This document shows positions 2,419 to 13,593 of a stretch of 64,000 nucleotides of DNA, piece by piece. Every line of letters begins with the position of its first letter. The stretch's first letter is position 1. The notes below the pieces were generated by a model that saw nothing but the letters and a program-made list of their open reading frames with translations, did not search any database and was not told where the DNA came from. The translations under genes and the position numbers were made by a program. Origin of the DNA: Trinickia symbiotica (GTDB lineage Bacteria; Pseudomonadota; Gammaproteobacteria; Burkholderiales; Burkholderiaceae); contig NZ_PTIR01000005.1 of assembly GCF_002934455.1 (NCBI RefSeq), forward strand, positions 62,001 to 126,000. The letters run 5' to 3'.

Positions 2419-3945
2419 TCAGAAGAAGCCGAGCGGCTTCGCGTCGTAGCTGACAAGCAGACACTTCGTCTGCTGGTAGTTCGAGAGCGCCATCTTGTGC
2501 GTCTCGCGTCCGATGCCCGACTGCTTGTACCCGCCGAACGCCGCATGCGCTGGATAAAGGTGGTAGCAGTTGGTCCACACGCGACCGGCTTCGATTTCCC
2601 GGCCCATGCGATACGCGCGCGTGCCGTCACGCGTCCATACGCCGGCCCCGAGTCCGTAATAGGTGTCGTTCGCGAGCTCGATCGCTTCGGCTTCGTCCTT
2701 GAATGTCATCACCGATGCGACGGGGCCGAAGATCTCCTCCTGAAACACGCGCATTTTGTTGTTTCCAAGCAGCATCGTCGGCATGACGTAATAGCCGCTT
2801 GCGAGACCCTCGGCCGGGCTCCTGCGCTCGCCGCCCGTCAGGCACGTCGCGCCCTCGCCCCGGCCGATATCGATGTATGAGAGGATCTTGTCGAGCTGCT
2901 GCTGCGACGCCTGTGCGCCGATCATCGTGCCGGGATCGAGCGGATGGCCGGCTTTGATCGCCTGCACGCGCGCGATGGCCTTCTCGATGAAACGCTCGTA
3001 GATCGACTCCTGAATCATCACGCGCGACGGACAGGTGCAGACCTCGCCCTGGTTCAGCGCGAACATCGCGAGCCCTTCGAGCGCCTTGTCGAGGAACGCA
3101 TCGTCGTGATCGAGCACGTCGGCGAAAAAGATGTTCGGGCTCTTGCCGCCGAGCTCGACCGTCGACGGAATCAGATTCTCGGCCGCGGCACGCAGGATAT
3201 GCTTGCCGACCGGGGTCGACCCGGTAAACGCGATCTTCGCGACACGCTTGCTCGTCGCGAGCGCTTCGCCGGCCTCTTTGCCGAAGCCGTTGACGATGTT
3301 GATCACGCCCGGCGGGAACAGATCGCCGATGAGCTGCATCAGCACGAGTACCGAGGCCGGCGTCTGCTCGGCGGGCTTCATGACGATGCAGCAGCCGGCC
3401 GCGAGCGCCGGCGCAAGCTTCCAGGCCGCCATCAGCAGCGGGAAGTTCCACGGAATGATCTGGCCGACCACGCCGATCGGCTCATGGAAATGGTAGGCGA
3501 CCGTGTTGTCGTCGAGCTCGGAGATCCCGCCCTCCTGCGCCCGAACGCAACCCGCGAAGTAACGGAAGTGGTCGACGGCGAGCGGCAGGTCAGCGGCCAT
3601 CGTCTCGCGCAGCGGCTTGCCGTTGTCGATCGTCTCCGCCACGGCGAGCAGCTTCAGGTTCTTCTCCATGCGTTCGGCTGCGGCGAGCAGAAGATTGGAC
3701 CGCTCGGTCGCCGATGTCTTGCCCCATTTGCGGCGGGCCTTATGCGCGGCATCGAGCGCGAGATCGATATCGGCCGCACCGGAGCGCGGCACGCGGCAAA
3801 ACGGCTTGCCGTTGATCGGCGAGAGGTTTTCGAAGTATTCGCCGCCAACGGGCGGCACCCACTTGCCATCGATGTAGTTCTCGTATTGCTTCGCGTACGG
3901 GTACTCGATATCGAGGCCAAGCTTCTTCAGGTCGAACATGTCCAT
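2419..3945 (-). CDS. NAD-dependent aldehyde dehydrogenase (ExaC/AcoD-type acetaldehyde dehydrogenase)
   Basis: Cytoplasmic enzyme of 508 residues oxidising aldehydes, probably acetaldehyde, to the acid. Family motifs are clear: the [20 protein letters not shown] cofactor-pocket region, FTGSTPVGK, the catalytic-Glu motif [11 protein letters not shown], and the catalytic-Cys segment [11 protein letters not shown] typical of ExaC/AcoD enzymes. I start at the ATG at 3945 ([12 protein letters not shown]) because an AAAGGAGA ribosome binding site lies just before it; the GTG seven codons upstream would put that site inside the gene. It is the last gene of the minus-strand series alcohol dehydrogenase, cytochrome c, aldehyde dehydrogenase, so it likely completes the route alcohol to aldehyde to acid. 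The gap to the cytochrome gene is 81 bases. Confidence 0.93.
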
Positions 3946-4026: not shown

Positions 4027-4476
4027 TCATTGCCCCGGGCCGGCGACGAGCGGCGTCGACGACGTGCGCGCCATATCGGCGGTGAGCTTCGTCGCTTTCG
4101 GGCGATATCCGTTCGAATAGAGCAGGAAGGCCATGATGTCGGCGTACTCCTGATCCTTCATCTGGCCCGGGCGATCGGCCGGCATGTTCGACGACATGTA
4201 CTTGTAGATGCCGCCGATCGTGAGATGCGAGTGGCCCGTGGGCGCGAACGCCGGGCCGCTCAGGGCCGGCCCCGCCATACCCTGCAGGCTCGCGCCGTGG
4301 CACTTCGCGCAGGCGCTCGAATAGAGGCTCTTGCCATGGGCGACCTGAGCGTTATCGAACGACGGCACGTTCGCGGATGCCGTCGTCGTCGCATCGGCCG
4401 GTGCGCCGGACGCCGCCCCCATGGTGCCTGCGAGCAGTACCCCTGCAAGGGCGAACGAGTTCAATCGAATCTTCAT
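4027..4476 (-). CDS. Periplasmic c-type cytochrome (electron acceptor partner of the PQQ dehydrogenase)
   Basis: A 149-residue protein with a signal peptide (MKIRLNSFALAGVLLAGTMG to about residue 25). It has a single haem-binding CAKCH motif at residues 56-60 and a likely axial Met within SSNMPAD (about 98). The ATG at 4476 is preceded by a TGGAG ribosome binding site; longer upstream frames are not supported. It starts 28 bases after the stop of the PQQ dehydrogenase gene, so the two are probably cotranscribed. The cytochrome likely takes electrons from the reduced quinoprotein in the periplasm, as cytochrome c550-type partners do in other PQQ ethanol dehydrogenase systems. Confidence 0.9.
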   Translation of the reverse strand: MKIRLNSFALAGVLLAGTMGAASGAPADATTTASANVPSFDNAQVAHGKSLYSSACAKCHGASLQGMAGPALSGPAFAPTGHSHLTIGGIYKYMSSNMPADRPGQMKDQEYADIMAFLLYSNGYRPKATKLTADMARTSSTPLVAGPGQ

Positions 4477-4504: not shown

Positions 4505-6232
4505 TCAGCGTTTGCCGAGCGCGAACACGTAGAGCGTGCCGCCGCGCGGAACCTTGTCGGCGACTTTCGCCATCGGGCCGCCCCAAATCGGGTTAGCGCC
4601 GCCGTAGCCGGCGAGAACCGCGACGTATTCCTTGCCGCCGGCTTCGAACACGGACGGCTGAGCGACGATGCCGCTCGCGAGTTGGGGGCTCTTCCAGAGC
4701 ACCTTGCCGGTCTTCTCGTCGAAGGCGTAGAGGTGGCCATCGAGCGCGCCGGAGAAGAGCAGTCCGCCCGCCGTCGTCACGATGCCGCCGTTCCAGGGCA
4801 TCTTGCTCCAGTGACTCCACACCTTCTTGCCGGTGTTGGCATCGAACGCCACGAGCTCGCCATAGCCTTTGCTCCCCGGTTCGGGATGGATCGTGAAACC
4901 CTCGCCGAGGTAAGGCAGCCCTTCCATGTAGTCGATGTCCTTGCCCGATAGCTGCATGCACCCATGCAGCGCGGGAACGAACGCGAGATGCGTGGCGGGA
5001 TCGTAGGACTTCGACCACCAGTTCGTGCCGCCGAGGAAGCTCGGGCAGGTGTCGATCGTCGTGCCGACTTTCGGGTACATCGCCGAATCCTGGATCGGCG
5101 TGCCGTCGGCCTTGTAGCCCGTGACGGACGTGACTTTCACGAACGCCTTGGCATAGATGAGCTTGCCCGTCTGGCGATCGATCGCATCGAAGAACCCATT
5201 GCGATCGAAGTGCAGCAACGCGTCGTAGTCCTTGCCCTCATATTGGATCTTGGCGAACATGCCCGGATTGACGCCGTCGTAATCCCACGTGTCGTTGCGC
5301 GTGTACTGGAAGTGCCATTTGATGTCCCCCGTCTTCGCATCCATCGCGAGCATCGAATCCGAATAGAGGTTGTCGCCGGGGCGCATCGAGGCCAGCCATG
5401 GCCCCGGATTGCCGACGCCCCAGTAGAGCGTCTTCGTTTCAGGATCGAACGTGCCCGTCATCCAGGCCGCGCCTCCGCCGTGCTCGTACATGCCCTTCGG
5501 CCAGGTATCGCCGCCCTTTTCCTGCGGCGCGGGGATCGTGTTGCGCTTCCAGAGAACGGAGCCGTCATCGGCGCTGACGGCAACGATGAAGCCGCGCGCA
5601 CCGTATTCCCCGCCCGAGTTGCCCACGACGATGGCGCCGTCGAGGGCGAGCGGCGCAAGCGAAAACGCGTAGCCCGTGCCAGGGTCGAACATCTGCTTCT
5701 TCCATTTCACTTCTCCGGTCTGCGCGTCGAGCGCGACGATGTCGCCGCTCAGCATCGCGACATAGACGTTCTTGCCGTAAAGCGCGACGCCACGATTGAC
5801 GACGTCGCAGCATGCGTTCTTGAAGGCCTCGGGACCGAGCTTTGGATCGTAGTGCCACAGCGACTTGCCGGTGATCGCATCGAACGCGTAGACGTTGTCC
5901 TTCGGCCCCGTCACGAACAGGTAGCGGCCGTTCACGATCGGCGTGGCCTCGAAGCCCTGCTGAAGTTCCGCCGGGAACTTGTAGCTCCAGACTTGCTTGA
6001 GCCCGGCGACGTTGGAGGTATCGATCTGCTTGGCCGGCGAATGCGAGTGGCCGTCGTAGGCGCGGTAATAAGTGAGCCAGCCCGGATCGTCCTGAGCGTG
6101 TGCGAGACGCTCGTACGTCACCGGCGGATATTCGTCGGCTGCTGCTGCGCGCTGCGCGCCGAGACTCAGAACGCCGGCGAGTGCGCTCGCAAGTGCCATC
6201 GCCGTAATGGCTGAGGCCGGACCTCTACTCAT
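4505..6232 (-). CDS. PQQ-dependent alcohol dehydrogenase (quinoprotein, ExaA/PedH family, lanthanide-type active site)
   Basis: A 575-residue periplasmic quinoprotein with a signal peptide of about 32 residues (ending AAAADEYPP) and an eight-bladed propeller of W-docking repeats (for example DAITGKSLWHYD, DAQTGEVKWKKQ, DEKTGKVLWKS). The vicinal disulfide Cys141-Cys142 (NACCDVVNRG), which sits over PQQ, is present. The catalytic Asp317 lies in WDYDG; the second Asp (319) two residues later is the position that distinguishes lanthanide-dependent XoxF/PedH-type enzymes from calcium enzymes, which carry Ala or Ser there. Predicted reaction: primary alcohol to aldehyde, with electrons passed to the adjacent cytochrome. 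It is the first gene of the three-gene minus-strand unit and has a sigma-54 promoter at 6359-6373. Confidence 0.93.
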   Translation of the reverse strand: MSRGPASAITAMALASALAGVLSLGAQRAAAADEYPPVTYERLAHAQDDPGWLTYYRAYDGHSHSPAKQIDTSNVAGLKQVWSYKFPAELQQGFEATPIVNGRYLFVTGPKDNVYAFDAITGKSLWHYDPKLGPEAFKNACCDVVNRGVALYGKNVYVAMLSGDIVALDAQTGEVKWKKQMFDPGTGYAFSLAPLALDGAIVVGNSGGEYGARGFIVAVSADDGSVLWKRNTIPAPQEKGGDTWPKGMYEHGGGAAWMTGTFDPETKTLYWGVGNPGPWLASMRPGDNLYSDSMLAMDAKTGDIKWHFQYTRNDTWDYDGVNPGMFAKIQYEGKDYDALLHFDRNGFFDAIDRQTGKLIYAKAFVKVTSVTGYKADGTPIQDSAMYPKVGTTIDTCPSFLGGTNWWSKSYDPATHLAFVPALHGCMQLSGKDIDYMEGLPYLGEGFTIHPEPGSKGYGELVAFDANTGKKVWSHWSKMPWNGGIVTTAGGLLFSGALDGHLYAFDEKTGKVLWKSPQLASGIVAQPSVFEAGGKEYVAVLAGYGGANPIWGGPMAKVADKVPRGGTLYVFALGKR

Positions 6233-6358: not shown

Positions 6359-6373
6359 GCAACTCATATGCCA
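6359..6373 (-). promoter_or_regulatory. Sigma-54 (-24/-12) promoter of the PQQ alcohol dehydrogenase operon
   Basis: The minus strand reads TGGCATATGAGTTGC from 6373 to 6359. It matches the TGGCACG-N4-TTGC consensus, with the essential GG and GC doublets separated by exactly 10 bases. It lies about 126 bases before the dehydrogenase start and about 110 bases downstream of the palindromic operator, the usual geometry for an enhancer-dependent promoter. Confidence 0.75.
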
Positions 6374-6455
6374 TTGGCCCGCAACGCTTGATGCGCGTTG
6401 GCCTCGCGGCACATGGGCTCACTTTTTCATGCGTCGATCGACCGCGTCGTTGCGA

Positions 6456-6518
6456 CGCATCGCTGTCTCAACATGGGACAGTTGGAACGGACCTGTTCAG
6501 CGGCGAGACAGCGATGCG
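6456..6518. repeat. 14-bp perfect inverted repeat enclosing the activator sites
   Basis: CGCATCGCTGTCTC at 6456-6469 is the exact reverse complement of GAGACAGCGATGCG at 6505-6518, with 35 bases between. It overlaps both activator sites, so the outer halves of sites 1 and 2 are mirror images of one another. Confidence 0.85.
6463..6511. promoter_or_regulatory. Paired palindromic upstream activator sites for the dehydrogenase promoter
   Basis: Two 19-base palindromes lie head to tail. Site 1 at 6463-6481 is CTGTCTCAACATGGGACAG, and site 2 at 6493-6511 has arms CTGTT/GACAG with the same 9-base spacer. Their centres are 30 bases apart, about three helical turns. The same motif occurs before pqqA. 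I infer these bind the AcoR-type activator encoded at 7901-9940. Confidence 0.65.
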
Positions 6519-6646
6519 GCGTGATAGCCCCGATCGAATGACGAGTCGCGCGGGGACTCGAACGAGGCAGGGCTCAGCGACTGAGGAGCTGAGGGGAAGG
6601 CGCGCCGCGAGCAGGCGCGCGATGAGGCAGGAGGGGAAGCGCGGGC

Positions 6647-7648
6647 TTACGCTGCGCGATGCGGCGATCGCGAGCCCGACGATGAGCCGAACATCGTTTC
6701 GATCGCCTGCGCGACACCGCGAGCAAGCGCGGGCTCGCTGCCGAGATGGCCCGCGCGCACACGCGTCGTTTGGAGTTGCGGAATCGCGCCCGCCAGGCGG
6801 CGCAGATTGTCGATCGGGCAAACGGGATCGCGCGAGCCGTGTATCGCCGCTATGGGTACGCCTGCCTGCGCGGCCCGACGAGCGAGCGACAGCAGGCGAT
6901 GTTCGCCGAGCCAGCAATCATGCATCAGGTAGTGGGCTTGAATTCGATACTTGCCCACCGAGCGACGGTCGCCCACTCGCGTGCGTGGTGTCCGACGGAG
7001 CGCGCGGCGCGAATTCGCCGATGCGAGGACGGCTTCTTCATAGGCTTGCCATGCCAGCGCAACGGCTCGCTGTCGCGATGGGTCGCCACGCGTTCGCAGT
7101 GCTTCTTCGCAGCGGCGCAGCAACGACGCTGGACGATTCGTCGAAGCGGCCTTGGACAAGCGCGCCCACTCACGCGGCGCGCGCTTGCGCGACATGACGA
7201 AAAGCTTGCGGACCTCGGCGCGCGAGGCGAGGAAGAGACCGCGCACGACGACGCCCGTCACATGGCGCCAATGCATTCCGGCATAGGCGAGCGCGAGCGA
7301 CGCACCCCACGAGCCGCCGAGCACGCCCCATCGCTCGATGCCCAATTCGCGGCGGATCGCCTCCATGTCGCCGATCAGCCTGTCCGTGCGATTGTGGCGC
7401 ACACTCCCGTGTGGCCGTGACGCGCCCGCTCCGCGCTGGTCGATCTGAACGACTCTGAAGCGAGCGAGGTCGAAAAGCCGCCGCACGCTCGGCTGGCTTC
7501 CGCTACCGGGCCCGCCATGAAGGACCGCGACCGGGACGCCATCGGCCGCGCCCGCAACGGTAAACGCGATGCGGTGCCGGTCGCGGATCAAATGACGCTT
7601 GACGAGGGCGGCCTTCGAGGATTCGTCGTTGGAATGAGGAGTGCGCAT
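6647..7648 (-). CDS. Alpha/beta hydrolase, proline iminopeptidase-like (peptidase family S33)
   Basis: A 333-residue protein if started at the ATG at 7648 (MRTPHSNDESSK); an in-frame ATG at 7744 would add 32 residues, and neither has a strong ribosome binding site. The oxyanion motif HGGPGSGSQPS, then DQRGAGASRPHG, and the nucleophile elbow GGSWGASLALAYA are diagnostic of prolyl aminopeptidases and close relatives, which release N-terminal proline or act on small amides and esters. A late Asp (GSRDPVCP) and His (RAGHLGSEP) complete the catalytic triad. It sits between the dehydrogenase control region and the divergent regulator gene. It is rich in Arg, and a link to alcohol metabolism is not evident. 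Confidence 0.85.
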   Translation of the reverse strand: MRTPHSNDESSKAALVKRHLIRDRHRIAFTVAGAADGVPVAVLHGGPGSGSQPSVRRLFDLARFRVVQIDQRGAGASRPHGSVRHNRTDRLIGDMEAIRRELGIERWGVLGGSWGASLALAYAGMHWRHVTGVVVRGLFLASRAEVRKLFVMSRKRAPREWARLSKAASTNRPASLLRRCEEALRTRGDPSRQRAVALAWQAYEEAVLASANSRRALRRTPRTRVGDRRSVGKYRIQAHYLMHDCWLGEHRLLSLARRAAQAGVPIAAIHGSRDPVCPIDNLRRLAGAIPQLQTTRVRAGHLGSEPALARGVAQAIETMFGSSSGSRSPHRAA

Positions 7649-7900
7649 AAAGGGGCTTGGGCTTTGACCGTCATCAACGTGCGGCTCGGGTGAAACCGCA
7701 AACTGCGGATAATCCGGATATCGCCGTCCGGGGATCGGCCCCATCGTAAACCGATGCCGGCGATGCCGCCGCTATCCACTCGCTCGGCAGTGCCGACGCG
7801 GACATCACCTCGGTCGGGAAGCTCATTCTGGCGCGCGACTTGCTTTCAACGGCGTCACGAAGCGCGTCGGCCACGTGCCGCCGCCCGAAAGGAGGAGACA

Positions 7901-9940
7901 ATGCGCAACGACCCGGGCCCGGCCGCGAATCCGCTCTCGGCCACCGAGGGCTGGCTGACCCCGTGCATTCAGAAAGCGCACGAGCGCTCGGAAAGCTTCG
8001 GCCTCAAATCGTCGACACAGCCCGACTATGACGTGCTGCCGGCCCCCGATCTCACGGTCAAGCGCGAGCAGAATCGCGTGCTGACGGCGCATGCGCTGCC
8101 TGTCATGGAGACGCTGCGCGAGCAGATCGTCAATACGCAAAGCATGATCGTGCTGACGGATGCTCAGGGCCTCATCCTCCATTCGATTGGCGACGACGAT
8201 TTTCTGCGGCGCGCCGAGAAGGTCGCGCTGCGGCCCGGCGCGAATTGGGCCGAGGACCGTCAAGGCACGAATGCGATCGGCACCGCGCTCGCCGAGCGCA
8301 GCGCGACCGTCGTGCATGGCGACCAGCATTACCTCGCGGCCAATCGGTTTCTCACCTGCTCGAGCGTGCCGATCCTCGATCCGTACGGCGATCTCACGGG
8401 CGTGCTCGATGTGACGGGAGACTACCGCAGCTATCACCAGCACACGATGGCGCTCGCGAAGATGTCGGTGCAAATGATCGAGAATCATCTCTTCGCAAGC
8501 AAGTTCCGCGATGCCCTGCAGATCTCGTTTCATAGCCGCCCCGAATTTCTCGGTACGCTGATGGAAGGGATCGCGGCTTTCACGTTCGACGGGCGCTTCC
8601 TGTCCGCCAATCGCAGCGCACAGTTCCAGCTCGGGCTGTCGCTCACGGCGCTACGCGCACATACGCTGGCGTCGCTCTTCGGCCTGACGAGCGGCGAGCT
8701 CATCGACAAGTCGCGCACGAGTCGCGATTCGATCGTCGCGCTGAACCTGCACAACGGCGCCGTCGTATGCGCGCATGTCGATTACCGGCGGGCCACGATG
8801 ACGAACAGCGGTTGGCCGCGCGAGGCCGATCGGACGCAGCGCGGTGCCGAGTCGCGTCCTGCACAAGCGGGTGCCGCGACGAACGCGGTGCGGCTCGGCC
8901 ACCTCGATACAGGCGATCCTCAAGTCGCGTCCGTCATCGCCAAGGTGCGCAAGGTCATCGGCAAGGACATCCCCGTTCTGATCACTGGCGAGACGGGCAC
9001 CGGCAAGGAGCTGTTGGCGCAGGCCATCCATAACGATTCGCCGCGCCGCGACGGACCATTCGTGGCCGTCAACTGCGCGTCGATTCCCGAGACGCTGATC
9101 GAATCGGAGCTTTTCGGGTACGAGGAAGGCGCCTTCACCGGCGCGCGGCGCAAAGGCGCGCTCGGCAAGGTGCTGCAGGCGAACGGGGGAACGCTCTTTC
9201 TCGATGAGATCGGCGACATGCCGTACCCGCTGCAGGTGCGGCTGTTGCGGGTGCTGCAGGAGCGTGTCGTCAACCCGCTGGGATCGACGAAGTCGATCCC
9301 CGTGGACATCGCCGTCGTCTGTGCGACGCATCGCAGCTTGCGAGAGATGATCGCGCAGAACCGCTTTCGGGAAGACCTCTACTATCGGCTCAACGGGCTC
9401 GTCGTCAAACTGCCGCCACTGCGCGAGCGGACGGACCTCGCCGTCGTCATCGAAAAAATGCTCGACGACGAGACGGCTTGCGCGACGGACGGCCGGCGAC
9501 CCGCCATCGCGCCGGAGGTCATGGCGCTCTTCGAGCAATGTGCATGGCCGGGGAACTTCCGACAGCTCGGCAATCTGCTGCGCACGGCCGCCGCGATGGT
9601 CGACGACGACGGCGAGATACGGCGCGAACACCTTCCCGACGATTTCTTCGAGGATCTCGCGATGCGCGCGGCCAGTGGCTGTGGCTCGCAGAACATGAAC
9701 GCGAACACTGACATGAGCGCAGGCGCTGCGCCCGACGCTGCCGCGCCGGCTCGCGAGCCGCTCGAGGGCGCCGGAGGCACGCGACTTCACGATCTCACGC
9801 TGTCCGCGATCGCAGCGGCCATCGCGCGCCACGGCGGCAATGTGTCCGCGGCCGCCCGCGCGCTCGGCGTCTCGCGCGCCACGATCTATCGCAAAATGCC
9901 GGTGGCATCCGGTGCGAAAAACGCGAACGGCGACGACTAA
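7901..9940 (+). CDS. Sigma-54-dependent transcriptional activator, AcoR family (GAF, AAA+, Fis-type HTH)
   Basis: A 679-residue enhancer-binding protein. The ATG at 7901 follows a near-perfect GGAGGAG site; the open frame upstream to 7754 has no such support. The N-terminal half holds a GAF-type sensor (TVVHGDQHYLAANRFLTCSS, LDVTGDYRSYHQH). The central AAA+ domain has Walker A GETGTGKE at 363-370, the sigma-54-contacting GAFTGA loop at about 410-415, and Walker B FLDEIGD at about 435. The C-terminus has a Fis-like helix-turn-helix (GGNVSAAARALGVSRATIYR, about 645-665). AcoR-family members sense small metabolites such as acetoin, alcohols or aldehydes. Its position between two sigma-54 promoters with matching palindromes suggests it activates both the dehydrogenase operon and pqqA. 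Confidence 0.93.
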   Translation: MRNDPGPAANPLSATEGWLTPCIQKAHERSESFGLKSSTQPDYDVLPAPDLTVKREQNRVLTAHALPVMETLREQIVNTQSMIVLTDAQGLILHSIGDDDFLRRAEKVALRPGANWAEDRQGTNAIGTALAERSATVVHGDQHYLAANRFLTCSSVPILDPYGDLTGVLDVTGDYRSYHQHTMALAKMSVQMIENHLFASKFRDALQISFHSRPEFLGTLMEGIAAFTFDGRFLSANRSAQFQLGLSLTALRAHTLASLFGLTSGELIDKSRTSRDSIVALNLHNGAVVCAHVDYRRATMTNSGWPREADRTQRGAESRPAQAGAATNAVRLGHLDTGDPQVASVIAKVRKVIGKDIPVLITGETGTGKELLAQAIHNDSPRRDGPFVAVNCASIPETLIESELFGYEEGAFTGARRKGALGKVLQANGGTLFLDEIGDMPYPLQVRLLRVLQERVVNPLGSTKSIPVDIAVVCATHRSLREMIAQNRFREDLYYRLNGLVVKLPPLRERTDLAVVIEKMLDDETACATDGRRPAIAPEVMALFEQCAWPGNFRQLGNLLRTAAAMVDDDGEIRREHLPDDFFEDLAMRAASGCGSQNMNANTDMSAGAAPDAAAPAREPLEGAGGTRLHDLTLSAIAAAIARHGGNVSAAARALGVSRATIYRKMPVASGAKNANGDD

Positions 9941-9942
9941 GC

Positions 9943-9995
9943 ACTGTCGCGCATCGACAGTACACTGTGTCCACCGCTGTCTCAGAATGCGACAG
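9943..9995. promoter_or_regulatory. Paired palindromic activator sites upstream of pqqA
   Basis: Site P2 at 9977-9995 is CTGTCTCAGAATGCGACAG, matching the dehydrogenase-proximal site at 16 of 19 positions. Site P1 at 9943-9961 has perfect 7-base arms (ACTGTCG/CGACAGT) with a shorter spacer, and lies just after the regulator stop codon. Centres are 34 bases apart. P1 might instead act as a short hairpin at the end of the regulator transcript. Confidence 0.6.
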
Positions 9996-10156
9996 TCCTG
10001 TGCCGAGACGCAACACATGGGTGGCAACGAATCGTCGCCATCGCCGGCCTTGTCAGCGGTTCCATCCAATTCCCTCGCCCGCCGACACCTCGCAATCGAT
10101 CAGGACTCCGAACGATTGCGAGGTCGCGCGGCTCGCCATCGCTTCCGATGGATATT

Positions 10157-10172
10157 CGGCATGGCGCTTGCT
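10157..10172 (+). promoter_or_regulatory. Sigma-54 (-24/-12) promoter of pqqA
   Basis: CGGCATGGCGCTTGCT has GG and GC doublets separated by 10 bases and a good match to TGGCACG-N4-TTGCT. Expected transcription start is near 10183, about 50 bases before the pqqA ATG. It is about 180 bases downstream of activator site P2. Confidence 0.75.
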
Positions 10173-10235: not shown

Positions 10236-10310
10236 ATGCAGTGGACCCCACCCGCCTACACCGATTTGCGCTTCGGCTTCGAAGTGACGATGTACATCGC
10301 CACTCGCTGA
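10236..10310 (+). CDS. pqqA: PqqA, precursor peptide of the cofactor PQQ
   Basis: A 24-residue peptide, MQWTPPAYTDLRFGFEVTMY followed by IATR. It contains Glu16 and Tyr20 in the EVTMY motif, the two residues cross-linked by PqqE and excised to form pyrroloquinoline quinone. The ATG at 10236 has a GAGGAGA ribosome binding site 5 bases upstream. No pqqB, C, D or E gene follows: the next gene is a metallophosphoesterase 270 bases downstream. This pqqA therefore stands alone beside its own sigma-54 promoter. It supplies precursor for the dehydrogenase at 4505-6232. Confidence 0.95.
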   Translation: MQWTPPAYTDLRFGFEVTMYIATR

Positions 10311-10580: not shown

Positions 10581-11531
10581 ATGGATGACAACGATAAAGG
10601 CCGTATCGAAAGCGGCCGGCGCGACTTCCTCAAATGCATGGCATGGGCGGGCGCGGGGACGCTATGGCTCATGCAAGGCGGCGTGCTGCAGGCGCGCACG
10701 CTCGGCGACGCGGACACGGCCGATGCAAGCCGCAACGCGACGTTCAGCTTCATGCAGATCAGCGATTCCCATATCGGCTTCACGAAGGCGCCGAATCCGG
10801 ACGTCACCTCGACACTGAAAGCCGCGCTCGGGCGCATCGACGCGCAACCCGTACGCCCCGATTTCATCGTGCACACCGGGGACCTCACGCATCTGTCGAA
10901 GCCCGACGAGTTCGATACGGTCGCGCAGCTCATGCGCGCCTCGCGCACGCAACAGCAGTTCTATGTGCCCGGCGAGCATGACGTCATCGGCGACAACGGT
11001 GCCGAGTTCTTTCGCCGCTTCGGCCACGAGGAGGCCAGTCCAGGGGGATGGTACAGCTTCGATCATCGCGGCGTGCACTTCATCGCGCTCATCAACGTGC
11101 TGAACCTCAAGGCAGGCGGCCTCGGCTGGCTCGGCCCCGATCAGCTCGCGTGGCTCAAGAACGATCTTGCGGGCCGCTCGGCCGAGACGCCGATCGTCGT
11201 CTTCGCGCACATGCCGCTTTGGGCGCTTTACCCGTCGTGGGGATGGGGCACCGACGACTCGGGCGAAGCCCTTGCGCTGCTGAACCGCTTTGGCTCGGTC
11301 ACGGTCTTGAACGGGCACATTCACCAGATCCAGCAAAAGGTGGAAGGCCATGTCACGTTTTATACGGCGCGCTCGACGGCCTACCCCCAGCCGGCGCCCG
11401 GCGTCGGCCCGGGGCCGGGCCCGCTCAAGGACCTGCCGGCCGGCAAGCTGGCCGACTATATCGGCGTGCGCTCGGTGCGCCGCATACAAACCGGCGGGAC
11501 GCTCGCATTGACCGAGGAGACCTTGGCATGA
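10581..11531 (+). CDS. Tat-exported metallophosphoesterase
   Basis: A 316-residue calcineurin-like phosphoesterase. I start at the ATG at 10581 (MDDNDKGRIESGRRDFLK), which has a GAGAAGG site; the frame is open to 10497 but without support. A twin-arginine signal (SGRRDFLK followed by a hydrophobic stretch to about residue 40) implies folded export. The five metal-binding motifs are present: DSHIG, GDLTH, GEHD (a variant of GNHD), AHMPLW and NGHIHQ. The substrate is unknown. Its stop overlaps the start of the cupredoxin gene by four bases (ATGA), so the two are translationally coupled. Together with the ECF sigma/anti-sigma pair downstream they form a four-gene cassette. Confidence 0.9.
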   Translation: MDDNDKGRIESGRRDFLKCMAWAGAGTLWLMQGGVLQARTLGDADTADASRNATFSFMQISDSHIGFTKAPNPDVTSTLKAALGRIDAQPVRPDFIVHTGDLTHLSKPDEFDTVAQLMRASRTQQQFYVPGEHDVIGDNGAEFFRRFGHEEASPGGWYSFDHRGVHFIALINVLNLKAGGLGWLGPDQLAWLKNDLAGRSAETPIVVFAHMPLWALYPSWGWGTDDSGEALALLNRFGSVTVLNGHIHQIQQKVEGHVTFYTARSTAYPQPAPGVGPGPGPLKDLPAGKLADYIGVRSVRRIQTGGTLALTEETLA

Positions 11532-11923
11532 CTCGCACGAACCTCCAACTTGCGCGGCGTCGCGTCGTAAGCGTCTGCCTGGCGGCCGGGGCACTGGTCC
11601 CGTTCGTCTTTCTCGCGCCCGCCGCGCGCGCCGGCGACACCGCTGCGCCATCGCCCTCGGGCGGTAAGGCGACCACCTACAACGTCGAAATCCGCAACTT
11701 CGCGTTCGAGCCGAAGGAGATCACCGTGCCGGCCGGCGCGCGCATCGTCTGGGTCAATCGCGACGAGGAACCGCATCTCGTCGTCAGCGTCGGCGGGGCG
11801 TTCAAGCCCTCGCAGGCGCTCGACACGAACGATTCGTTCGCGACCGTGCTCGCGAAGCCCGGCACCTATCAGTACTACTGCGGGATTCATCCGATGATGG
11901 TCGGACGGATCGTCGTCCGTTGA
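11528..11923 (+). CDS. Exported cupredoxin-like copper protein
   Basis: A 131-residue protein with a signal peptide (RRRVVSVCLAAGALVPFVF, cleavage near ARAG at about residue 35). Its plastocyanin/amicyanin-like fold carries type-1 copper ligands: His83 (EEPHLVV), Cys118 and His121 (YYCGIHPMM), and Met123 or Met124. It is probably a periplasmic electron carrier. It overlaps the upstream metallophosphoesterase gene by four bases and ends about 90 bases before the sigma factor start. Confidence 0.9.
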   Translation: MTRTNLQLARRRVVSVCLAAGALVPFVFLAPAARAGDTAAPSPSGGKATTYNVEIRNFAFEPKEITVPAGARIVWVNRDEEPHLVVSVGGAFKPSQALDTNDSFATVLAKPGTYQYYCGIHPMMVGRIVVR

Positions 11924-11958
11924 GCGCTCATGCGATCGACTACCGCGAGCGGTGACAC

Positions 11959-11987
11959 GGGAATAAACTGGGCGCGCGGCCGGTATA
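11959..11987 (+). promoter_or_regulatory. Candidate ECF-type promoter upstream of the sigma factor gene
   Basis: GGGAATAA at 11959-11966 and CGGTATA at 11981-11987, about 14 bases apart, resemble the GGAAT/CGGT elements of autoregulated ECF promoters. It lies just ahead of the GTG start at 12014. Tentative: I have only one instance. Confidence 0.3.
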
Positions 11988-12013
11988 GAGCCGTAAAACC
12001 CGGAGGGGCCACG

Positions 12014-12673
12014 GTGGCCGAGATCGACAGCAAGGGTGGACGCTCGCGCGACGACGCCGAGCGCAGCCGACGCTTTCAGCAGATGGCGCTGCCGCATCTC
12101 GATGCGGCCTACAACCTTGCGCGCTGGCTGGCCGGCAACGCGAGCGACGCGGAAGACATCGTCCAGGAGGCGGTCATGCGCGCGTTCCGCTTCTTCGATT
12201 CGTTCCACGGCGAGAGCGCGCGGCCGTGGCTGCTCGCAATCGTGCGCCGCACCTGGTACACCGAGTGGCAACGGCGCAGCTCCTCCCACGAGGTGGCCGC
12301 GTTCGACGACGAGATCGAGCAGGCCGACGATACGGCAATCGACGGCTGGAGCACCGCGCCGAGCGATCCGCAGGCATTGCTGATTCGCGAGGAGAATACG
12401 CGCCTCGTGCACGAGGCGCTCGCCCAACTGCCGGTCGAGTTCCGCGAAGTCCTCATCTTGCGGGAGCTGGAGGACATGAGCTATCGCGACATCGCGGCCA
12501 TCGCGGATCTTCCGATCGGAACGGTCATGTCGCGCCTGACGCGCGCGCGGCGCAAGCTCGCGACATTATTGAAAGCGCGGCTCGCGGCGGGCAGCGCCGG
12601 CGGCTCGCAAGCGGCAGCGCCGATGAGTCGGCAACCGCCCGAGCCCGGCCCAATTTGCGAGGGAGACGCCTGA
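12014..12673 (+). CDS. ECF-family RNA polymerase sigma factor
   Basis: A 219-residue protein with region 2 (LDAAYNLARWLAGNASDAEDIVQEAVMRAF, then PWLLAIVRRTWY) and region 4 (LPVEFREVLILRELEDMSYRDIA, PIGTVMSRLTRARRKL). The start is taken as the GTG at 12014 because a CGGAGG ribosome binding site precedes it; an ATG at 11930 would add 28 residues but lies upstream of the candidate promoter. Its stop overlaps the first base of the anti-sigma gene. The regulon is unknown, but the upstream metallophosphoesterase and cupredoxin genes are obvious candidates. Confidence 0.92.
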   Translation: MAEIDSKGGRSRDDAERSRRFQQMALPHLDAAYNLARWLAGNASDAEDIVQEAVMRAFRFFDSFHGESARPWLLAIVRRTWYTEWQRRSSSHEVAAFDDEIEQADDTAIDGWSTAPSDPQALLIREENTRLVHEALAQLPVEFREVLILRELEDMSYRDIAAIADLPIGTVMSRLTRARRKLATLLKARLAAGSAGGSQAAAPMSRQPPEPGPICEGDA

Positions 12674-13593
12674 TGGAGTGCAAAGAAGTGCGGCCGCTCA
12701 TCGACGCGTACGTCGATCGCGAGCTTTCCTCGTCCGAAGCCCGACACGTCGAAGCGCATCTCGAACAATGCCCGGAGTGCCGCCGCGAGAGCGAAGCCGT
12801 ACTCGGCGTCAGCCGCATCGTACGCCAGGCCGCCTATCACCGAGCGCCGGAGCCACTGCGTTCGCGCATCGTGGCAGCGCTGCCGCAGGCGGCGCCCGAA
12901 GCTGAGCCCGAAGCAAGAACCGAACCCGGGCCGGCTCCGGAACCGCGCCGCCCCGCACGCAACAGGTCATGGCTCGATGGATGGCGCCTGCCACGCTTCG
13001 CGGGCGGCGGCGCGGCGGGCGCGCGTGCGGGAGCCGGCACCGCGCCCCGCTTCGGCACGCTGGGCACCGTAGGCGCCATGGGCTTCGCGCTCTTCGCGGC
13101 GGCGGCCGTCGTCGCCGTCACGATCGCGCTCCATCCGCGGCAGACGGCCTCGGGCGCCTTCGTCGACGAACTCGTTTCGAGCCACGTTCGCGCGCAGTTG
13201 TCGGGACGCGACATCGATGTCGTCTCGACCGATCAGCACACGGTGAAGCCGTGGTTCAACGGCCGGATCGACTATGCCCCGCCCGTCGAAGACCTCGCAT
13301 CGAGCGGATTCGCGCTGGTCGGTGGGCGCCTCGACTACATCGGGCATCGCCGCGTCGCCGTCCTCGTCTATCGCTATCGCAAGCATGTCGTCGACGCCTA
13401 TGTGTTCCCCGATGCGGAATCGGGGGCGGCCGCCGAGGCGGAAGCCGGCGCGCCGGCGCTCGTAAGCGACGGGTATGCGCTCGTCCGCTGGCGCGAGCAT
13501 GGCATGGTCTGGTGGGCCGTCACCGATGCCGCCCCCGACGTGCTGCGCCGGTTCGAAGACGCGATGCACGCGAGGCTCGCCGCGGGAGGCTGA
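12673..13593 (+). CDS. Anti-sigma factor with N-terminal zinc finger (zf-HC2) and transmembrane helix
   Basis: A 306-residue membrane protein. The N-terminus has the HxxxCxxC zinc anti-sigma motif (HLEQCPECRRE). A Pro/Ala/Arg-rich linker and one transmembrane helix (GTVGAMGFALFAAAAVVAVTI) follow, then a periplasmic domain of about 150 residues (VSTDQHTVKPWFNGRIDYAP, GGRLDYIGHRRVAVLVYRYR), as in the ChrR/RsgI-unrelated group of anti-sigma proteins found beside ECF factors. The start overlaps the sigma gene stop by one base (TGATG). It should sequester the sigma factor at the inner membrane until an envelope signal arrives. Confidence 0.88.
   Translation: MECKEVRPLIDAYVDRELSSSEARHVEAHLEQCPECRRESEAVLGVSRIVRQAAYHRAPEPLRSRIVAALPQAAPEAEPEARTEPGPAPEPRRPARNRSWLDGWRLPRFAGGGAAGARAGAGTAPRFGTLGTVGAMGFALFAAAAVVAVTIALHPRQTASGAFVDELVSSHVRAQLSGRDIDVVSTDQHTVKPWFNGRIDYAPPVEDLASSGFALVGGRLDYIGHRRVAVLVYRYRKHVVDAYVFPDAESGAAAEAEAGAPALVSDGYALVRWREHGMVWWAVTDAAPDVLRRFEDAMHARLAAGG

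Follow-up and report, generated by a model that had tools for sequence, protein, structure and literature searches.

The window analysed here, a stretch of 64 kb from Trinickia symbiotica (G000:C5:62001-126000, i.e. contig C5 of the 6.71 Mb Burkholderiaceae genome G000), carries two sets of genes connected with pyrroloquinoline quinone (PQQ) and, between them, the gene of their putative common regulator. On the minus strand lies an operon headed by a PQQ-dependent alcohol dehydrogenase of the methanol/ethanol family (4505–6232; TIGR03075 552 bits, cutoff 480), and on the plus strand an intact pqqA for the 24-residue PQQ precursor peptide (10236–10310; TIGR02107 40.1 bits, cutoff 20; PF08042 42.4 bits), whose product has the conserved Glu and Tyr typical of the 22–24 residue precursor. 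Between the palindromes that precede the two, as an earlier note on this DNA had stated, we found the gene of an AcoR-type sigma-54 activator (7901–9940, plus strand). Very probably this activator switches on the dehydrogenase operon as well as pqqA through paired palindromes and −24/−12 promoters, its ancestral target on the cofactor side probably having been a whole pqqABCDE operon. That one activator serves both targets had been proposed from the letters of the window alone; shared paired sites, sigma-54 promoters and conservation in relatives now argue for it, and the comparison strongly supports the predicted coupling of the two promoters.

Both promoters fit the GG-N10-GC spacing with TGGCAY-N5-TTGC-like elements and are predicted sigma-54 promoters, in agreement with the earlier reading of these positions. 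The one of the dehydrogenase operon, TGGCATATGAGTTGC, occupies positions 6359–6373 of the minus strand (TGGCAT-N5-TTGC, GG-N10-GC), the one of pqqA, CGGCATGGCGCTTGC, positions 10157–10171 of the plus strand (CGGCAT-N5-TTGC, GG-N10-GC), with the pqqA start codon 79 nt past it. The two 19-bp palindromes, CTGTCTCAACATGGGACAG at 6463–6481 and CTGTCTCAGAATGCGACAG at 9977–9995, are present as described and share the same base at 16 of 19 positions. Each contains the first of two predicted activator sites: TGTCTCAACATGGGACA (6464–6480, 13.4 bits with the hold-out motif described below) and, 30 bp from it, TGTTCAGCGGCGAGACA (6494–6510) at the dehydrogenase operon; TGTCTCAGAATGCGACA (9978–9994, recovered by motif scans including the hold-out motif) and, 21 bp after it, TGTGCCGAGACGCAACA (9999–10015, 16.2 bits with the hold-out motif) at pqqA. 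The claim that each palindrome has a second one nearby thus held for the dehydrogenase operon (6493–6511, at 30 bp) and had to be corrected for pqqA, where the repeat at 9943 is unconserved and the partner is the site at 9999. The former, ACTGTCGCGCATCGACAGT (9943–9961, CTGTC-N7-GACAG), is present in the window, and no such inverted repeat occurs in the 13 relatives compared; two loci (L021, L023) share a CGACAG arm of it at another distance. In seven loci of the Caballeronia type a further site occurs 35 bp upstream, at about the place of this repeat, which hence may be a degenerate third site.

Exact CTGTC-N9-GACAG occurs twice in the window, precisely at the two palindromes, and eight times in the whole genome (6.71 Mb; two for the reversed control). 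With up to two mismatches we counted 30 matches in the window against 25.5 expected, a number reached by 23 of 100 shuffles. Looser matches being at chance level, the palindrome alone proves little, and the case rests on pairs, sigma-54 promoters and conservation. Indeed, neither of the two site pairs was reached by any of 2000 dinucleotide shuffles. With a hold-out motif of 134 sites from loci outside the window and its clade (not perfectly blind, the 134 sites having been chosen using the full motif), exactly two pairs with both sites >2 bits and 18–39 bp apart pass in the entire 64 kb, namely 9978/9999 and 6464/6494, and the site at 9999 is the highest-scoring single site of the window. The long-spaced TGT-N11-ACA pair is found once in the window's genome, at the dehydrogenase operon, and the short-spaced pair three times, one of them at pqqA (none in the control). 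Another short-spaced pair lies at G000:C9:143529-143567 (locus L140), near a different sigma-54 activator gene (C9:142590) and a −24/−12-like sequence (C9:143632), and is perhaps a target of that neighbouring activator. A genome search for CTGTC-N9-GACAG had been suggested to see whether pqqBCDE and other alcohol genes share it. The six other perfect genomic sites have no strict −24/−12 element in the 2.5–3 kb examined around them, so that the exact pattern alone is no regulon marker.

For comparison, we scanned genome contigs with the activator protein and retained 80 orthologous loci, the best 80 of at least 560. In 76 of them a pqqA comes after the activator, at most 425 bp away in 72 and 0.9–2.8 kb away in four, and a [CA]GGCA[CT]-N5-TTGC promoter precedes pqqA in all 76, 76–108 nt from the start codon. 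We submitted these 76 regions and that of the window to an unsupervised palindromic motif search (for each width, 60 random starts plus a seeded one), and all eight best runs shown returned TGTTcCA-N3-TGgAACA, with about two sites per region. Site pairs are present in 74 of the 77 regions, spaced by 20–23 bp in 66, by 35 bp in seven and by 32 bp in one; the distance is exactly 21 bp in 52 of the 74. Conservation of the palindrome in related species, named earlier as a check, is therefore a matter of architecture: the exact CTGTC-N9-GACAG letters stand before pqqA in only 2 of 80 loci (L015 and L025, both in the window's clade), whereas the paired TGT-N11-ACA arrangement is kept. A separate order-wide pattern search for sigma-54 promoters before pqqA turned out to be too loose (66 of 399 genomes matched; pqqA was recognized by regular expression in 3 of 30 retrieved loci, one of them the pqqA of the one-carbon island of the window's own genome, treated below) and was not used as evidence.

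The dehydrogenase side was examined with a motif trained on pqqA regions only. There were 69 dehydrogenase matches (68 loci and the window), nine of which were dropped as partial or with less than 400 bp upstream, leaving 60. A sigma-54 promoter was found within 600 bp upstream in 60/60 (1.15 expected by shuffling), and a site pair 30–33 bp apart precedes 53 of them, the window included. At a pair score of 18, shuffles are expected to give 0.0 such loci and other spacings give 0–2.

The activator itself matches PF01590 GAF (49 bits), PF00158 Sigma54_activat (231 bits) and PF02954 HTH_8 (40 bits) above the Pfam cutoffs; a PAS match stays below cutoff, and none of the NCBIfam models passes its cutoff among the 25 of 27 matches listed. 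From its sequence it is a sigma-54 activator (bacterial enhancer-binding protein) of AcoR-like architecture, with an N-terminal GAF domain, an AAA+ domain and a C-terminal Fis-type helix-turn-helix, and the GAFTGA motif is found in 80 of the 81 activators (80 loci and the window), with L045 as the exception. Its recognition helix carries Ala (SRAT) in the window and six relatives, compared to Asn (SRNT) in the others. At position 4 of the half-sites before pqqA, C is found in 20 of 28 cases in the loci with the Ala helix versus 11 of 268 in all others; before the dehydrogenase the shift is weaker (15/28 versus 47/184).

As had been noted before, no pqqB stands beside the pqqA of the window. 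The meaning given to such a solitary gene changes, however, when relatives are considered: in 44 of 76 loci, pqqB directly follows the activator-linked pqqA in an operon of the pqqABCDE type, whereas in the other 32 no pqqB was found in the 3.8–5.8 kb examined to the right. Since the same promoter heads the pqqA-pqqB operon in 44 loci, the pqqA of the window appears to be the surviving first gene of an operon that lost pqqBCDE, and since all six nearest relatives (HTH-A clade, 6/6) have the operon, its solitary state is derived. Eight changes between the operon and the solitary state, counted in either direction, are needed on the activator tree, so that the state arose repeatedly. Probably, then, the gene is what is left of a lost operon, still controlled by the activator and supplying a PqqBCDE encoded elsewhere. 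In the part of the window where the 44 relatives have pqqB (10581–13593) we see a metallophosphoesterase, a cupredoxin, a sigma factor of the extracytoplasmic function type and then one open reading frame, the tested part of which has no Pfam match and which may encode an anti-sigma factor.

The pqqB search covered 34 genomes, i.e. those of 29 solitary relatives (L031, L058 and L065 were left out), the window's own and four whose locus lacks pqqA. pqqB was found elsewhere in the genome in 29 of 29 solitary-pqqA relatives and in the window's genome. This distant pqqB follows a cytochrome b561 gene in 30/30, with no pqqA in the locus of ~3.9 kb (this comparison of contexts does not include the second pqqB found in G491, the two pieces below cutoff in G490, or the pqqB genes of G498 and G499). 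From the cytochrome b561 neighbour only, we infer that the distant pqqB of the relatives lies in a one-carbon island, as it does in the window's genome. A looser scan of the four loci lacking pqqA did not reveal one near the activator. Where pqqA has been lost, in L048:8038-8070 (ACAGGGGGTGTTGCATGCTGCAACACCCCCTGT) and in L088 near 8000–8030, the site following the activator gene has turned into one long palindrome, possibly now a terminator or a single strong site.

These data also bear on the alternative that survives best, namely that the solitary pqqA is a decaying remnant, its promoter and peptide merely lingering while the pqqA of the island supplies enough precursor. The genome of the window does hold two more pqqA genes, and solitary copies show relatively more amino-acid change than operon copies (codon differences counted pairwise and uncorrected for the tree: 3562 synonymous to 1549 non-synonymous for the 33 solitary genes, 5845 to 904 for the 44 in operons). 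However, of the 37 loci without pqqB (32 solitary ones, the four lacking pqqA, and the window), 33 still encode a complete PqqA of 24 residues with its Glu and Tyr, the residues that become PQQ (PMC12997753), and the promoter is present in all 33. The operon/solitary state arose repeatedly, and in two loci whose genomes have no pqqB at all (L048, L049) pqqA is gone while the dehydrogenase and its sites stay. We therefore consider decay unlikely, though not negligible. The pattern also suggests that pqqBCDE parted from pqqA more than once, with pqqA staying under the control of the dehydrogenase regulator.

The sole pqqB of the window's genome lies on contig C1, in the one-carbon island mentioned above. 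This second module (loci L094, L105 and L106) comprises a paralogous activator (C1:409681-411525, 43% identical to that of the window), a PQQ dehydrogenase (TIGR03075 match, WDLD motif), a pqqA, one-carbon genes and pqqBCDE. Its pqqA at C1:425774, 14 kb from the island activator, has a sigma-54 promoter of its own, and the first gene (TIGR03129, below cutoff) of a formylmethanofuran dehydrogenase and formyltransferase gene set also follows a sigma-54 promoter. Whether pqqBCDE shares the palindrome was a question of the earlier note. In the 20 kb around pqqBCDE the sole site of at least 9 bits is TGCTCCAAAACGACACA (L106:5081), 6 kb before pqqB and 210 bp before the promoter of the formylmethanofuran gene set; it could be a third target of the window activator. 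The third pqqA of this genome (C2:26767-26829, L010) is divergent from another PQQ-type dehydrogenase gene, and a sigma-54 promoter was looked for upstream of it and not found. To place these copies in the family, we examined 80 family genomes at least 90% complete, 34 of which have pqqA, in 54 copies. A sigma-54 match precedes 35 of the 54 copies under strict settings (0.19 expected) and 46 under relaxed ones (0.37 expected), and for the 12 island-type copies the numbers are 11 and 12. These numbers point to widespread control of pqqA by sigma-54 in the Burkholderiaceae.

The island activator is also one candidate if the palindromes of the window were bound by another protein. It belongs to the same family and genome, the pqqA 14 kb away has a sigma-54 promoter as well, and one island-type pqqA (L185) is preceded by two weak sites of the window motif 32 bp apart. 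No site of at least 9 bits, however, occurs in the remaining 11 of the 12 island-type regions, and a motif search on all 12 gave low-information AT-rich patterns only, nothing comparable to the window motif, so that the site of the island activator itself was not found by it. Moreover, the motif accompanies activators of the window type and changes along with their recognition helix, and we regard binding by a different protein as very improbable. Resemblance by chance, or dyads of a general kind with no regulatory role, would fit the chance-level number of single palindromes with two mismatches in the window, yet pairs, spacing, promoters and conservation lie far above shuffles and the same layout recurs in dozens of related genomes, which makes this explanation extremely improbable. 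As to L185, which comes from the same genus (G452) and is the only pqqA found in that genome, its two sites of 10.7 and 9.0 bits possibly reflect a regulatory take-over.

Linkage and covariation thus point to the neighbouring activator as the protein that binds the sites. In the mechanism we propose, its GAF domain would trigger the activator, probably in response to an alcohol or a related compound. The activator would then bind the pairs of 17-bp TGT-N11-ACA sites, about two helical turns apart at pqqA and three at the dehydrogenase operon, and, from these helically phased pairs, would turn on the −24/−12 promoters of both targets by looped contact. On the cofactor side, the whole pqqABCDE operon would probably have been controlled ancestrally; in this lineage pqqBCDE would have been lost from the locus, leaving only pqqA under the activator, and the solitary PqqA would feed the PqqBCDE encoded by the one-carbon island on the other contig.

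Several points weigh against this reading. The loci are related by descent, and the counts given for them are therefore dependent. Seven of the 60 dehydrogenases are preceded by a single good site only (L034, L035, L038, L039, L042, L043, L044), and in L047, L055 and L056 the pair adjoins the activator while pqqA is 0.9–2.2 kb off. As our pqqA finder requires Glu-x-x-x-Tyr/Phe, a decayed pqqA would score as absent, and two of the four genomes with a pqqA-less locus still have pqqB. The seven activators with the Ala helix form one clade (SH-aLRT 97 in a quick tree), so that the change in helix and sites is one event and suggestive only; as independent proof, the covariation is weakened accordingly. 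Furthermore, no site of the window activator was found at the island pqqA, and the supply of PqqA is thus not under this activator alone. Concerning supply, pqqA was not required in M. extorquens according to an older report cited in PMC11317620 and PMC9088363, and in a lanthanide methylotroph pqqA copies go down as xoxF goes up (PMC10848612).

On the other hand, PqqA availability is described as rate-determining in Methylovorus MP688, with five copies (cited in PMC11317620), and we infer that extra PqqA would raise PQQ supply here. With the window locus, a solitary pqqA gains a candidate regulator and exact DNA sites, by which limitation of PQQ synthesis by PqqA becomes testable. More tentatively, the level of PQQ might be set by precursor dosing, with several pqqA genes serving one PqqBCDE and each of them controlled by the sigma-54 activator of the dehydrogenase requiring the cofactor, and with a prolyl aminopeptidase-like hydrolase acting as the missing PqqA peptidase; we see this as possible rather than likely. 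If it were true, PQQ would be made in proportion to the apoenzyme in demand. The hydrolase gene in question lies on the minus strand between the dehydrogenase and the activator (6647–7744 as the longest open reading frame, the real start perhaps at 7669; Abhydrolase_1; TIGR01249 206 bits, below the cutoff of 259.75). A gene of this kind adjoins the activator in the window and in 23 of 80 loci, stands directly before pqqB in 13 of the 30 distant pqqB loci, and, in nine of the 54 loci of the census, lies close to pqqA but on the other strand. Such neighbours come from the ranges L193-L221 and L142-L151. A locus of another family also has one (L118:430-1545, 35–37% identity). The window's genome has a single such gene and gave no pqqF match. 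We therefore name the hydrolase as a candidate for the PqqA-trimming peptidase.

Regulators common to a PQQ alcohol dehydrogenase and PQQ biosynthesis are not without precedent. In Pseudomonas, AgmR, a LuxR-type response regulator, and ErbR link exaA/ped and pqq; at the locus described here, by contrast, the putative regulator is a sigma-54 activator with paired palindromes, and only pqqA, not pqqBCDE, lies beside the sites of the window. For Pseudomonas, the pqq operon is described as co-regulated, likely through AgmR (PMC12997753). The form of the sites is also familiar: TGT/ACA inverted repeats with a 10–12 bp spacer are reported for FhlA, NifA and fifteen Clostridiales groups, the Clostridiales AcoR itself having a distinct motif (PMC6615313), and BmoR, which responds to alcohols, depends on an inverted repeat (PMC8899819). 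The window activator shares the AAA+ domain with GAFTGA, the Fis-type helix-turn-helix and the TGT-ACA sites with this AcoR/BmoR/NifA-FhlA class, and differs from it in its predicted targets, a PQQ dehydrogenase and a PQQ precursor gene. Orphan pqqA copies away from pqqBCDE are likewise known from methylotrophs, where they are differently expressed: those of M. extorquens respond to the lanthanide form (PMC11317620), and five pqqA copies, three of them separate, are described in PMC9851590. The available parts of these two papers name no dedicated activator or sites for them, whereas the pqqA of the window shares its sites with the dehydrogenase operon. Among the titles and abstracts listed from open-licence PMC, none treats pqqA or a PQQ dehydrogenase of this family as controlled by sigma-54, and a term search did not find PQQ in the main text of a paper on sigma-54 regulons (PMC12316311). 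As far as searched, the sites, the activator and the family-wide pattern thus appear to be new, while orphan pqqA genes, shared regulators and TGT-ACA sites were known before.

The closest published counterpart concerns the island. From what is available of PMC9088363, a region of insect-associated Burkholderiaceae resembles the C1 island of the window's genome in having a sigma-54 Fis-type regulator, a PQQ dehydrogenase, pqqBCDE, one-carbon genes and a short pqqA; the window locus is separate from it, with a paralogous activator of 43% identity. The PQQA of that region, ~100 bp long, was called an incomplete, degraded fragment (PMC9088363). The 12 island-type pqqA copies in our census code for a peptide of normal, full length and are preceded by sigma-54 promoters, and for these copies such a reading looks mistaken.

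The remaining genes of the operon and the type of its dehydrogenase complete the description of the locus. The best PDB match of the dehydrogenase is 6zcw/6zcv (E 3e-119), which we take to be PedH. Its WDYDG aligns with WDFDG in 6zcw, whereas 1flg has WDFSG there. The second Asp of this D-x-D metal motif marks lanthanide-type PQQ alcohol dehydrogenases, and by sequence the dehydrogenase of the window carries their D-x-D pattern, as do 67 of 68 homologues, the single exception being a partial match. Downstream on the minus strand follow a cytochrome c gene (4027–4476, open reading frame list with Cytochrome_CBB3 and Cytochrom_C Pfam matches; the start was placed by choice at the methionine of MKIRLNS, the Pfam search having used the longer frame) and, as third gene, the aldehyde dehydrogenase ExaC (2419–3945, with 3945 as the chosen start; NF050026 AcaldDHExaC 900.2 bits, cutoff 900). 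The T. soli locus (L018) has a separate promoter and two separate sites, 41 bp apart, for its aldehyde dehydrogenase gene.

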